Source: Solidesulfovibrio sp. (lineage in GTDB: Bacteria; Desulfobacterota; Desulfovibrionia; Desulfovibrionales; Desulfovibrionaceae). From it: DNA of 32,941 nucleotides. The stretch lies in assembly GCF_029978005.1 (NCBI RefSeq), contig NZ_JARKOZ010000039.1, forward strand, positions 1-32,941, written 5' to 3'. The notes beneath the pieces are model-generated. The model was not told the DNA's origin, ran no database searches, and saw only the letters and a list, made by a program, of their open reading frames with translations. The translations under genes and the position numbers were made by a program. Positions 19,925 to 24,975 of the stretch are shown piece after piece. Within the stretch, counting starts at the first letter, position 1. Each line of letters opens with the position of its first letter.

Positions 19925-20443
19925 TCAGTATTCCTCCGAGTGCTGCCGGTGCTGCTCCCAATTCTCCATGTAGAGCTTAGCCAGGCCAGCGTCCCGGATG
20001 ATCAGCAGGTTCTCGCCGTTCTTCTCTTGTGCCGCCTTCGTGAAATTGAAGCTCCCCGTCACAACCGTCTGCCCATCGATTACCATCACCTTGTTGTGGG
20101 CAATGGCATGGGCTGCATCGATATAGACCGGGACGCCCTCGTTTCTCAGGAAAGTTGCTCCAGTGTATGTCTCCTTCCGCTGGCTCTTGTCCAAAATCAC
20201 CTCGACCTTCACCCCGCGCCGGGCCGCATCCACCAGAGCCTTAGCGATGGGGGCGCTCGTGAAGCTGTAGGCCTGGACGTAGACAGCTCTCCCGAACTTG
20301 CCCGATGGCGTCAACGATGGCCTGCTGTGCGCCACCTTTGGGGCTGAAATAGACACTGACCGGGGTTCCTTCAGGGTCAGGTCGAAGGCATAGGCCCCTG
20401 AACAGACAAGAAGCAGACAGAACGTGATTACAAGCTTTCTCAC
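19925..20443 (-). CDS. Secreted PLD-family endonuclease (Nuc-like), scrambled segment
   Basis: The protein has 172 residues. The signal peptide MRKLVITFCLLLVCSGAYA is followed by one phospholipase D domain. The HKD motif is complete: H116, K118, D123, then G130, S131 and N133 (HNKVMVIDGQTVVTGSFNFT). This is the layout of the Nuc endonuclease of IncN plasmids, which cuts DNA without metal and works as a dimer. Residues about 28-50 look wrong. In another frame the same DNA (20294-20362) encodes SVYFSPKGGAQQAIVDAIGQ, the conserved segment expected there. Two opposite indels therefore cancel and keep the gene open. Downstream of the scrambled part, VYVQAYSFTSAPIAKALVDA is normal. Activity is uncertain. 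Confidence 0.85.
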   Translation of the reverse strand: MRKLVITFCLLLVCSGAYAFDLTLKEPRSVSISAPKVAHSRPSLTPSGKFGRAVYVQAYSFTSAPIAKALVDAARRGVKVEVILDKSQRKETYTGATFLRNEGVPVYIDAAHAIAHNKVMVIDGQTVVTGSFNFTKAAQEKNGENLLIIRDAGLAKLYMENWEQHRQHSEEY

Positions 20444-21069: not shown

Positions 21070-21495
21070 TCACTTTCTCACTAAAATCAACCCGACAACA
21101 CAAAATATAATTCCGACGAAGTTTATTTTTGAAAAACTTTCTTTATATATCAACAAGCCTACCGGAATAAGAAATATCGCTACTGAAATATTTGACAAAA
21201 CAGAAGCAATACTAATATCCCACCCCGATCTATAAGCCAATAAAAATCCAACCTCGAGACCTACTATTGCAAAACCTAATGCAATACTTGGCCAAAGTGA
21301 ATACTTCAAGTGCTCTGATATAGAAAAATTTGAATTACAAAACGGGAGTAGGACAAGAGAAAAGACGATTGCCGTTATATAAGTTACTATCAACGAGACG
21401 AATGGATTGAATTGTTGCGGTATAGATTTTTGAAAAATATGATAAAGTACATTTGATAGAACCACTATTACAATTGATATATAATATGACCCCAT
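21070..21495 (-). CDS. Half-size EamA/DMT-superfamily transporter
   Basis: The protein has 141 residues with about five membrane helices, a single EamA unit instead of the usual two, so it should work as a dimer. The ATG has GGAGG five bases upstream. The start YYISIVIVVLSNVLYHIFQK and the end GLLIYKESFSKINFVGIIFC plus VVGLILVRK carry the DMT pattern (Lys-Glu after the helix, then a closing Gly-rich helix). Base composition is low in GC (17 of 60 bases between 21121 and 21180) and unlike the core, so it is foreign. It is divergent from an ArgP-like regulator, as exporters commonly are from their LysR regulators, suggesting efflux of a basic amino acid or related metabolite (inference). Confidence 0.82.
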   Translation of the reverse strand: MGSYYISIVIVVLSNVLYHIFQKSIPQQFNPFVSLIVTYITAIVFSLVLLPFCNSNFSISEHLKYSLWPSIALGFAIVGLEVGFLLAYRSGWDISIASVLSNISVAIFLIPVGLLIYKESFSKINFVGIIFCVVGLILVRK

Positions 21496-21937: not shown

Positions 21938-22831
21938 ATGATCGATGTCAATATGCTAGAAGCCCTGGGCTCAGTCCTTGAACATGGTGGTTTTGAAAAA
22001 GCGGCGAAGTCTTTGTTTATTTCACAATCTGCAGTTTCACAGCGAATCAAACAGCTAGAAGAAAGCATTGGGCAAGTTCTAATTGTGCGCTCATCTCCCC
22101 CAAAGGCAACTCCTGCTGGAAAACAGCTGCTAAAATACTACAAACAAGTCAAATACCTTGAAGAAGATGTATTGTCCCGATTGGGTTTTGGTTCCAAAGA
22201 AAGATATTCAATTCTGGCAATCGGAGTAAATGCCGACAGTCTTTCTACTTGGCTTTTTGATATTGTTAATGAATTCTTTAAAATTAACAATGTATTATTT
22301 AATTTGATCGTTGATGATCAAGAAGAAACTCATAAGTTACTTAAGGACGGCGACGTTGTGGGATGCATAAGTGCAAGCAATGTCATTGTCCAAGGCTGTT
22401 CCTGTGATTACCTTGGCGCTATGCAATATAAATTTGCTGCCAACCCCACATTTTGCAAAAAATGGTTTGACAACGGTATTAATTATATCAGTGCAACAGA
22501 TGCCCCAATTGTCAACTTCAATACGAAAGACACCATTCACCACCAATTGTTTAAAAATATTTTTCAAAAAGTTCCTAGTGAATTCAATTCACATTACGTT
22601 CCATCCCCAGAACAACTATTACGCGCAGTAGCAAGTGGATTGGGGTATGGAGCAGTACCCAGCATTCAAGCTGAAAGCTATTTTCGAGCCGGTGAACTCA
22701 TAGATCTTTTCCCCGGGATATATGTTGATATTAATCTTTACTGGCATTATTGGAATATTGATCTCCGATTTTTAAAAAAATTCACAAAATCCCTAACTGA
22801 GCAGTCAAAGCTCGTTTTAAAACCTTATTAG
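21938..22831 (+). CDS. LysR-family regulator of the ArgP/LysG type
   Basis: The protein has 297 residues, the family length. The N-terminal winged HTH reads GGFEKAAKSLFISQSAVSQR followed by IKQLEESIGQVLIVRSSPPK. The RSSPP (RTxPP in ArgP) and TPAGKQLLKYYKQV stretches, then ILAIGVNADSLSTWLFDIV, are the marks of the ArgP/IciA/LysG branch, and NADSLxTW lies in its effector pocket. In known members, Lys or Arg binding controls an amino-acid exporter (argO or lysE). The divergent EamA gene takes that exporter's place here. The C-terminus (AGELIDLFPGIYVDINLYWH) also fits ArgP. Composition is AT-rich, matching the surrounding cargo. Confidence 0.88.
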   Translation: MIDVNMLEALGSVLEHGGFEKAAKSLFISQSAVSQRIKQLEESIGQVLIVRSSPPKATPAGKQLLKYYKQVKYLEEDVLSRLGFGSKERYSILAIGVNADSLSTWLFDIVNEFFKINNVLFNLIVDDQEETHKLLKDGDVVGCISASNVIVQGCSCDYLGAMQYKFAANPTFCKKWFDNGINYISATDAPIVNFNTKDTIHHQLFKNIFQKVPSEFNSHYVPSPEQLLRAVASGLGYGAVPSIQAESYFRAGELIDLFPGIYVDINLYWHYWNIDLRFLKKFTKSLTEQSKLVLKPY

Positions 22832-23045
22832 CGGTGCTGCTTTCTGCGTCATGAAAAGACCTCACCGCACCCAAAGCTTCTATAATAGCAGAGCATAACG
22901 TTTCAAGAGACTCCTCATGTATCCCAAGACAACCCTTGCTCCCGTTGTCATTTTCAAATTGTAATAAAATCATTTTCATTTCTGGAGAAATACGTGGCTG
23001 TAAGAATCTCACTACAAAAGGAATTACTGAATCGAACTTGTCCAT
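22782..23045 (-). CDS. 87-residue protein of unknown function
   Basis: I do not recognise it. The ATG (MDKFDSVIPFVVRFLQ) has AGGAGG a few bases upstream, a strong site that supports the start. The sequence is mixed helix with a cluster of acidic residues and two cysteines (GCLGIHEESLETLCSAIIEA). No signal peptide or membrane helix is seen. It follows the radical SAM gene on the same strand after 53 bases and may be its partner. Its last 50 bases overlap the 3' end of the convergent LysR gene. Confidence 0.62.
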   Translation of the reverse strand: MDKFDSVIPFVVRFLQPRISPEMKMILLQFENDNGSKGCLGIHEESLETLCSAIIEALGAVRSFHDAESSTANKVLKRALTAQLGIL

Positions 23046-23098
23046 GCAACCTCCTATTCGCCTGTTATACATTCAGTACAACCACACAGCCACATGAT

Positions 23099-24241
23099 CT
23101 ACCTTAGGTAACTTGACAATAATTTATCCGCGATGATTTCTGCCACTCTGGCAGGCAGCGACGAAGCAATGTTTAGCGATTGCTCGTTGTATTTTTCCAT
23201 TTCATATGTCTTTGCACATTCACATTCCAAGCTTAACATTTCGTCAATGCTTTTGCTTACATTAAAAGAGTTTATTGCTTTATATAAATCCCCATTACAT
23301 CGATAACAATTGCTTACATAAAGCTGAGGCGTTGGATAGAATTCAAAGCCTCCTATGCGCAACTCAAAGCCCAAGTCTTCAATGTTTTCTTTAATCTCTT
23401 CAATTATATCTTTCAGTATCCATCCACTTGGAATACGATAGATCCCCTGTGAGTAAAAATAATCAACTAAAGTCCACTTTTGGATGCTGGTCGGCTCAAG
23501 AGAAACAACATCTGTTAGGTTGCGCAATTTTCTTAGACTCTCGACAACATCCGATATTGATTCTTTTATTGTTAGGAATAATGGCTTCACTGTAATGTAT
23601 GTCAGCATTTTTATTTTGTATTTTTTAACCAATTCAGCCGCTTTTGTGTAGTCGTTAAAGGAAAACCCTTTATTTATGCAAAGGTCACGCACAACTTCTG
23701 AGACAGATTCTAACCCCATGCCAATCTCTGCGGATGTAGATTTCAATAACTCGGCCATAACTTGCAATACATTTTCAGTGATAAACTCAGGTCTACTTTC
23801 AATTATAACATGCTTTATATGGTTGTTCGATTCAACTATTTTTAATATTTCTGCTAAGTCATGGTCACACATCTCTTCCCGACTTAATATTGATCCAGCA
23901 TTATAAATACATACAATTGGAAATTCTTTAAAATCATATTTTATATATTCACTTATGAACTGCTGAAGATGCGATCCTTCAGGCATGAGACCGCTTTTTG
24001 TTGTCCCATGATAATGGCCACACATGGAACATCCCCCATAATCTAACTTACACCATGAACATCCAACTCCACGTAAATAAAAAATGATACGCTTAACTTG
24101 TTTACCATCCAAGTATCCGGTGCTTATAGATGAATTTGCAACGGATGTTAATTTATAATTCTTCGGTGCATAGGGAGAATAGTTTTTAAGCTTTTGGATC
24201 ATATGAGTCAGTACGCGCTGACTATTCGTTTCTGCATTCAT
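23099..24241 (-). CDS. Radical SAM protein resembling archaeosine-pathway RaSEA
   Basis: The protein has 380 residues from ATG at 24241 (AAGGA seven bases upstream); an earlier GTG would add 21 residues. YLRGVGCSWCKLDYGGCSMC sits at residues 55-74: cysteines C61, C64, C71 and C74 give a CX6CX2C (or CX9CX2C) cluster site rather than the standard CX3CX2C, as in the RaSEA/TIGR01210 group (GCxxx-GGCxMCG). Further group marks are VIIESRPEFIT (146-154), IGMGLES (173-179), VKPLFLTIKESISD (218-231), GGFEFYPTPQ (298-307) and a C-terminal Cys set C312, C315, C340 and C342 (NCYRCNG, ECEC). Archaeal RaSEA works with ArcS on tRNA preQ0 to make archaeosine; no ArcS-like gene is seen here. The bacterial role is unknown. 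The gene is AT-rich and foreign. Confidence 0.82.
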   Translation of the reverse strand: MNAETNSQRVLTHMIQKLKNYSPYAPKNYKLTSVANSSISTGYLDGKQVKRIIFYLRGVGCSWCKLDYGGCSMCGHYHGTTKSGLMPEGSHLQQFISEYIKYDFKEFPIVCIYNAGSILSREEMCDHDLAEILKIVESNNHIKHVIIESRPEFITENVLQVMAELLKSTSAEIGMGLESVSEVVRDLCINKGFSFNDYTKAAELVKKYKIKMLTYITVKPLFLTIKESISDVVESLRKLRNLTDVVSLEPTSIQKWTLVDYFYSQGIYRIPSGWILKDIIEEIKENIEDLGFELRIGGFEFYPTPQLYVSNCYRCNGDLYKAINSFNVSKSIDEMLSLECECAKTYEMEKYNEQSLNIASSLPARVAEIIADKLLSSYLR

Positions 24242-24303: not shown

Positions 24304-24332
24304 CATAAAAAGTATAATTAATACTTTTTATG
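24304..24332. promoter_or_regulatory. 12-bp perfect inverted repeat upstream of the radical SAM gene
   Basis: CATAAAAAGTAT and ATACTTTTTATG are separated by five bases. It lies 63 bases before the ATG of the radical SAM gene. It could be an operator or, given the T-runs, a bidirectional terminator closing the AT-rich block. Confidence 0.5.
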
Positions 24333-24676: not shown

Positions 24677-24975
24677 TGACCTGCCGTCATTCTTCGGACC
24701 AGTCAATTCTTGAGGGCGGCTCCGTGGTTTGAGGTACTGTCGAGCATCCGGGCAAAGGCCCCCGGCGTCATTTTACCGAGGCTCGAATGCGGCCGCACCT
24801 CGTTATACGTCCTGCGCCAATCCTCGATGACCACCTTGGCTTCCGTCCGGGAGCGGAACCATTCCATGGAGAGGCATTCGTCCCGGAATTTGCCGTTGAA
24901 GCTCTCGACCATACCGTTTTGCCAGGGCTTGCCGGGATCGATCAGGGCGACTTCGAGCCCTTGGTTCGCCACGGC
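24677..24975 (-). mobile_element. IS3-family transposase OrfB, C-terminal fragment with IS end
   Basis: The minus strand encodes GLEVALIDPGKPWQNGMVES, then FNGKFRDECLSMEWFRSRTE, then VVIEDWRRTYNEVRPHSSLG to a stop. These are the last blocks of the IS3-family integrase core, including the final catalytic Glu in MVESFNGK. The sequence TGACCTGCCGTCATTCTTCG at 24677 looks like an IS3-type terminal repeat. The N-terminal half and OrfA are gone. Confidence 0.82.

Follow-up and report, generated by a model that had tools for sequence, protein, structure and literature searches.

A RaSEA-like radical SAM gene of Solidesulfovibrio in a phage-located cassette with a small protein shared by LuxI/LuxR modules

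The enzyme and its four-gene cassette

What does a radical SAM protein resembling RaSEA, the archaeosine enzyme of archaea, do in an AT-rich stretch of a GC-rich Solidesulfovibrio genome? We addressed this question on a stretch of 32,941 nucleotides (hereafter the window), which is one whole contig (C31) of the genome G000 and also carries a tmRNA and a tRNA-Leu. A first-pass annotation, made from the letters, had read an open reading frame with an odd cysteine motif at 23099-24241. The frame is there, on the minus strand, running from 24241 to 23099; the plus-strand frame over the same interval holds 25 stops. The features of the locus are the following.

23099..24241, minus strand: RaSEA-like radical SAM protein, 380 aa, ATG at 24241 (TIGR01210, PF04055, orthologues)
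22782..23045, minus strand: 87-aa small protein, homologue of the small protein beside LuxI/LuxR (homology)
23050..23055, minus strand: AGGAGG ribosome-binding site of the small gene (sequence)
21938..22831, plus strand: ArgP/LysG-family LysR-type regulator, 297 aa, convergent with the small gene (NF002964)
21070..21495, minus strand: single-domain EamA transporter, 141 aa, divergent from the ArgP gene (PF00892)
24304..24332, no strand: 29-bp near-perfect palindrome CATAAAAAGTATTAATTATACTTTTTATG, candidate operator, 62 bp upstream of the RaSEA start
19925..20443, minus strand: PLD-type nuclease, marking the phage slot (78% DNA identity over 423 bp to the PLD gene of G004)

Searched against NCBIfam, the enzyme matched the RaSEA family TIGR01210 with 202.6 bits (E 8.4e-60) over profile positions 8-301 of 313, the second-ranking family being MnmL/YtqA with 37.6 bits. 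It also reached PF04055 (radical SAM; 30.8 bits, cut-off 29.5). The TIGR01210 equivalog cut-off of 212.15 bits was missed by the window protein and by its orthologues from S. alcoholivorans and a phage (206.1 and 210.8 bits). These orthologues are 81% and 74% identical to it and start at the same position, and they are this alike despite synonymous sites near saturation. All the motifs quoted in the first-pass annotation were found, namely CSWCKLDYGGCSMC at 61-74, IESRPEF, MGLES, VKPLFLT and C312/C315/C340/C342. When eight family proteins were aligned, G60, C61, C71, C74, C312, C315, C340 and C342 were among the invariant columns and C64 was variable. Among 11 bacterial and phage family proteins read by script, every one has an N-terminal site between CX4CX2C and CX9CX2C and a C-terminal CX2C...CXC; in the window enzyme these are CX9CX2C (C61-X9-C71-X2-C74), CYRC at 312 and CEC at 340. 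The noncanonical motif and the C-terminal cysteine set had thus been read correctly, and the proposed four-cysteine N-terminal set was wrong, because, of the 11 proteins, the three cassette members alone have C64. Profile search and motif reading agree on the RaSEA family rather than a CX3CX2C family, and no search placed the protein in an ordinary CX3CX2C radical SAM family. Judged from its sequence, the enzyme is a RaSEA-family member whose score falls slightly short of the cut-off. An AF2 model (three sequences) had a mean pLDDT of 52.9, below 50 at both cysteine regions, and a profile search of the PDB gave weak matches, the best to Elp3 at 2.3e-5. The best single-sequence PDB matches were set aside as tag-like chance matches, residues 82-91 resembling an expression tag.

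The small gene (23045-22782) starts 53 bp downstream of the enzyme gene with its AGGAGG at 23055-23050; at first reading it had been noticed as an 87-aa gene with a strong ribosome site. Its product had no match up to E 1 in Pfam and NCBIfam, and its AF2 model had a mean pLDDT of 66.1. The regulator matched NF002964 (ArgP/LysG) with 343.8 bits (cut-off 197) and has 3isp and LysG 6xtv/6xtu as solved relatives, and the EamA protein matched PF00892 with 36.1 bits (cut-off 28.2). A survey of neighbourhoods, which the first-pass annotation had proposed, showed that these genes form one conserved unit with the enzyme gene. The four genes occur in one order (RaSEA-like, small, convergent ArgP, divergent EamA) in the window, in S. 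alcoholivorans (L012) and in the viral contig G309, with identities to the window proteins, for S. alcoholivorans and the phage respectively, of 81/74% for the enzyme, 67/43% for the small protein, 78/67% for ArgP and 74/68% for EamA. S. alcoholivorans DSM 5433 appears to be the genome G003; estimated contamination is 8% for G003 and 4.1% for G000. Across the copies, pS was 0.52-0.75, mostly near saturation, while pN ranged from 0.11 to 0.20 in the three large genes and from 0.19 to 0.35 in the small gene; the corresponding pN/pS values, 0.15-0.27 and 0.37-0.56, indicate purifying selection on all four genes.

In 1-kb windows, and leaving aside mixed windows at the edges of the AT-rich stretch, the region from about 21 to 24.5 kb has 36-39% GC, the right flank about 69% and the remaining contig 57-76%. 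The enzyme gene had been described as foreign and AT-rich. The AT-richness was borne out; foreign origin is unproven, because the cassette has 33-42% GC in all three copies despite mostly saturated synonymous divergence, and because LuxR and LuxI genes in the matching phage slot are also AT-rich (36% and 43% GC), so that this composition may belong to the slot. The palindrome CATAAAAAGTATTAATTATACTTTTTATG was equalled by none of 200 mononucleotide shuffles in the window. By eye it is degenerate at the corresponding site of S. alcoholivorans and weaker in the phage; the S. alcoholivorans copy is not significant alone (97% of shuffles were as good), and the best palindrome of the phage is another one (7% of shuffles). 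These shuffles did not establish an operator common to the three copies.

Archaeosine partners and relatives of the enzyme

Could the enzyme be a true RaSEA, one that serves to modify tRNA or phage DNA with archaeosine or some other 7-deazaguanine? According to the available part of PMC11298593, RaSEA of T. kodakarensis works in complex with ArcS on the preQ0-attached lysine in tRNA. The cassette enzyme resembles it by a near full-length profile match that spans both the noncanonical CXnCX2C motif and the C-terminal CX2C...CXC, and two nearest outside relatives pass the TIGR01210 cut-off. The host also has TGT and QueC (260.4 bits in its own genome), so it probably makes preQ0. Against a true RaSEA, the ArcS domain PF17884 was found in none of seven genomes or records, the own genome (96.3% complete) among them, and among 14 controls the search rang only in the archaea M. 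jannaschii, H. volcanii and M. acetivorans; this supports the earlier remark that nothing like ArcS lies nearby. TGT-domain proteins (PF01702) numbered one per genome in the six genomes, G000 and G003 included, and zero on the phage record, and an extra archaeal-type TGT that would place preQ0 in tRNA was absent from G000, G003 and the phage record. One TGT with QueC in the own genome is as expected for queuosine. The cassette enzyme further differs from RaSEA in that all three cassette proteins score under the equivalog cut-off and that it is bacterial and phage-borne. Its gene also shares an operon with the small gene and has those of an EamA transporter and a LysR regulator as neighbours, two partners that archaeosine synthesis leaves unexplained. 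A tRNA role is therefore unlikely; the ArcS-domain result led us to set it aside as the leading reading, and we consider the wider reading, tRNA or phage DNA, very improbable.

When G000 and 98 relatives, a sample that includes every one of the 14 genus genomes, were searched with TIGR01210, 46 of the 99 had matches, and in only three, G003, G000 and G022, did these exceed 100 bits. With the enzyme as query, 2 of 297 class genomes matched at 1e-15 and 3 of 395 phylum genomes at 1e-12, both counts including G000 and neither G003. A scan of genome contigs with two narrow peptide patterns returned only S. alcoholivorans; one viral contig was matched by RaSEA queries, the same one by the EamA query, and a phage collection gave a weak match to the enzyme (23%, 1e-4).

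The nearest relatives found (L034 and L035) belong to f28, a Desulfobacterota-level family, and show 34-35% identity by alignment with the same seven cysteines. In a tree of 11 bacterial and phage proteins, the cassette members formed one group (100/100), joined to the two f28 proteins (97/96). Unlike the cassette enzyme, these proteins (L034:2232-3455 and L035:8999-10108) score over the TIGR01210 cut-off, with 214.2 and 223.5 bits; their genes are divergent to gyrA (by eye), and no cassette lies beside them in the 15 kb and 10 kb read, the latter ending 53 bp past the gene. Their genomes have a single TGT and no ArcS domain was found there, so bacterial TIGR01210 members need not be archaeosine enzymes, and that label on the f28 proteins is probably an over-annotation. 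A bacterial branch with a different substrate had been suggested as a possibility at first reading, and ArcS-free bacterial relatives do exist; a consistent ArcS/queuosine neighbourhood was seen in none of the relatives.

More distant members lie in metabolite-type surroundings, on the Streptomyces plasmids pFRL5 and pFRL3 and, in three copies, in G182. On the two plasmids (L010 and L041), the RaSEA-like gene is accompanied by P450, SHMT, glycosyltransferase, carbamoyltransferase and heptose genes, possibly a biosynthetic cluster. In G182 (L027:5216-18285), the three RaSEA-like proteins are encoded with an Orn/DAP-type decarboxylase, a methyltransferase, a PALP enzyme and an ABC-type ATPase (UvrA-like by eye), which looks like a natural-product cluster. 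In G022 (L028:7715-10895), the gene adjoins those of a nitroreductase and an ATP-grasp protein, with TIR- and STAND-like genes in the region (these two by eye). Among the papers listed in the literature searched, which included few subscription papers, none dealt with a RaSEA-like protein from bacteria or with a radical SAM signal synthase.

Phage location, slot exchange and the small protein

The third copy of the cassette lies in the viral contig IMGVR_UViG_3300010381_000010 (G309), which encodes a terminase, a portal or head-tail adaptor, an internal virion protein, a CI-like repressor, an antirepressor and a RecT-like protein; from its internal virion protein we would call it podovirus-like. 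The CI-like gene is divergent from the enzyme gene in G309 and in S. alcoholivorans, the two copies being 69% identical (the S. alcoholivorans copy passes the PF07022 cut-off, the phage copy has weak PHROG matches). No CI-like gene stands beside the cassette in the window. On the side where the other two copies carry it, upstream of the cassette, the window has at 24703-24972 a fragment like the end of an IS3-type transposase (by eye).

A prophage in another genome of the genus, G004, matches the flanks of G309 with 96.2% DNA identity over 3161 bp on the right and 97.7% over 299 bp on the left. Between them, the G004 slot holds a repressor, a PLD nuclease, LuxR, LuxI and the small protein, and the G309 slot a repressor (45% identical), nuclease-like genes (by eye), EamA, ArgP, the small protein and the RaSEA-like enzyme. 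Further G309 genes with relatives near the G004 locus are the antirepressor (62%) and the terminase (38%). The cassette is thus an exchangeable unit in a temperate-phage regulatory region. In the window a PLD gene lies next to the cassette, as the G004 PLD gene lies next to the LuxR-LuxI module, so the window looks like a remnant of the G004/G309 phage family. The small gene is part of the RaSEA operon and has the opposite orientation to that in the LuxI slot; it was therefore probably carried in rather than simply left over as flank. From these comparisons of sequence, the cassette is phage-borne and its small gene common to LuxI/LuxR modules, neither of which had been foreseen in the first-pass annotation.

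In Phaeobacter, prophage LuxI/LuxR units are exchangeable regulatory cassettes, according to the available part of a preprint (PMC13345283). The RaSEA cassette is like them in being an exchangeable synthase-regulator unit in a temperate-phage regulatory region, and unlike them in having a radical SAM enzyme, a LysR regulator, an exporter and a small protein in place of LuxI/LuxR. The same source describes, in Alphaproteobacteria, quorum-sensing modules also replaced by regulators that are not of quorum sensing, so that slot exchange alone is no proof of signalling. In a term search of its text, 'radical', 'exporter' and 'Desulfo' were not found, and 'small protein' appeared in the reference list only.

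Near the S. alcoholivorans cassette, L012:8290-13920 encodes a 1876-aa DRT-type reverse transcriptase (RT_UG10_large, 1102 bits), likely a defence gene in the mobile region of the cassette. The cassette itself could be a defence or superinfection-control module using a molecule made by radical SAM chemistry, for which viperin offers a comparison in logic. In favour are its place in a phage accessory slot; the DRT gene, roughly 1 kb past the S. alcoholivorans EamA gene; and DrmC matches of the window PLD gene (best 5.5e-14), of a kind that PLD-family proteins may give. PADLOC, however, matched none of the four window cassette proteins at E 0.01, on which we set aside a known defence family as leading reading, and an exporter and a LysR sensor are, to our knowledge, unusual defence parts. 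We regard such a module as unlikely.

With a profile of three small proteins, the small protein was found in 7 of 288 family genomes, all within the genus (14 genomes). Two of them, G000 and G003, have the cassette; in the other five (G004, G005, G007, G009 and G012; E 1.7e-15 to 1.6e-10) the small gene adjoins LuxR and a LuxI-family gene in every case. LuxI (PF00765) occurs in 5 of the 14 genus genomes, exactly the small-protein genomes without RaSEA, and had no match in G000 or G003; tblastn with the G004 LuxI and LuxR found no match in the window, L012 or the phage. Conversely, G000 and G003 are the only genus genomes with a TIGR01210 match above 100 bits. The remaining seven genomes, one of which (G002) is only 69% complete, have no small protein, no LuxI and no such TIGR01210 match. 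The co-occurrence of LuxI or RaSEA with the small protein gave a one-sided Fisher value of 2.9e-4, shared ancestry being ignored.

Pfam was run on five of the ten LuxI/LuxR proteins and recovered three LuxI (Autoind_synth) and two LuxR (Autoind_bind and GerE), all over the cut-offs; the other LuxR genes are 61-64% identical to that of G004. The LuxI-family proteins match an exosortase acyltransferase model below its cut-off and score under the cut-offs of named AHL synthase models as well, so that an acyl-homoserine lactone product is not certain. Four of the five LuxI sites are one syntenic chromosomal locus and the fifth is the G004 prophage related to G309; one chromosomal locus and one prophage amount to few independent events.

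Overall, the small protein adjoins a synthase-regulator set in nine of ten places, three RaSEA cassettes and six LuxI modules. The tenth is a weaker small-like stretch in the G004 prophage (L063:5639-5773, E 6.3e-6), about 2.7 kb from the LuxR gene and with no synthase directly beside it. At the LuxI modules, luxI and the small gene are transcribed divergently rather than as one operon. A profile of eight small proteins found only G000 among 395 phylum genomes, and two viral contigs, one of them apparently host DNA. The viral-contig search with the small-protein alignment matched G309 and L082. The left part of L082 (IMGVR_UViG_3300048577_000235) is the chromosomal LuxR-LuxI-small locus, with 94% DNA identity to L066 over 3.5 kb; it appears to be host sequence next to a prophage that by eye is Mu-like. 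Single queries with the small protein and LuxI of the G004 prophage returned nothing from viral contigs, and plasmid and phage searches with the small proteins nothing convincing.

Proposed function of the cassette

We propose that the cassette is phage cargo for making, exporting and sensing a small metabolite of lysine or arginine type, likely used as a signal and possibly a LysR-sensed alternative to LuxI/LuxR; we hold this tentatively, at a little under an even chance. With SAM and a [4Fe-4S] cluster bound by C61/C71/C74, the enzyme would break or rearrange a C-N bond in a small substrate resembling lysine or arginine, or in a conjugate of such a compound, as RaSEA does on preQ0-lysine. 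Its product would leave the cell through the single-domain EamA protein and be sensed by the ArgP/LysG-type regulator, which would control the EamA gene divergent from its own and might act on the RaSEA operon as well. The small protein would be an accessory also found in LuxI/LuxR modules. ArgP/LysG-family regulators classically respond to lysine or arginine and have basic amino-acid exporters as targets. As RaSEA uses a lysine conjugate, a product of lysine or arginine type is the simplest joint reading. That it would most likely be a signal follows from the phage slot and the small protein that the cassette shares with the LuxR-LuxI-small set. Against signalling stand the small number of independent LuxI sites, the divergent placement of the small gene at luxI, the CI-like gene missing from the window, the EamA relatives in genomes with no RaSEA gene and the exchange of quorum-sensing modules for other regulators in Alphaproteobacteria. 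A LysR-type receptor for a self-made signal has a precedent in the PqsR/alkylquinolone system of Pseudomonas, in which synthase and signal are unrelated to those considered here.

A rival reading is ordinary lysogenic-conversion cargo: the enzyme would make or detoxify a metabolite, EamA would export it and ArgP would regulate, with no signalling, and the small protein would be a generic regulator acquired by several phage and host modules. The divergent ArgP and EamA genes are arranged as in classical regulator-exporter pairs, and EamA relatives occur without a RaSEA gene (at 1e-15 in 35 of 288 genomes, two of which have the cassette). The settings of distant RaSEA-like genes, with P450, SHMT and carbamoyltransferase on the Streptomyces plasmids and, for the three G182 copies, with a decarboxylase and an ABC-type ATPase, fit such cargo too, as does the weak G004 small-like stretch without a synthase beside it. 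A generic regulator, however, sits less well with nine of ten small-protein places adjoining a synthase-regulator set, and with its absence from all seven genus genomes that lack both modules. We take cargo without signalling as a serious possibility, though not a probable one.

For the small protein in the signalling proposal, phage TF-smORF modules, as described in the available part of PMC10432266, offer an analogy, being likewise a regulator with a small protein in the phage decision region. By that analogy, the cassette small protein may act as an output on a repressor. The smORFs of that source have no homologues and inactivate cI; the cassette small protein, in contrast, also stands at a chromosomal LuxI locus, so its role may be broader. 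In its fullest form the proposal is temperate-phage quorum sensing with new chemistry: a RaSEA-family synthase, a lysine- or arginine-derived autoinducer, EamA export, a LysG-type receptor, a small-protein link to phage or host control, and a slot that swaps with LuxI/LuxR. We consider this full version possible and rather doubtful.

If true, it would mean that phages use signal chemistry other than acyl-homoserine lactones or peptides, and that the synthase of such a signal comes from a family of which the one member described, in the literature covered and as far as its available text goes, acts on archaeal tRNA. Whether or not the proposal holds, labels of 'archaeosine biosynthesis' in bacteria are doubtful, since two bacterial proteins pass the RaSEA cut-off and a search of their genomes for the ArcS domain found none. 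By linking two synthase-regulator sets that are unrelated, the small protein offers a handle for finding more of them.
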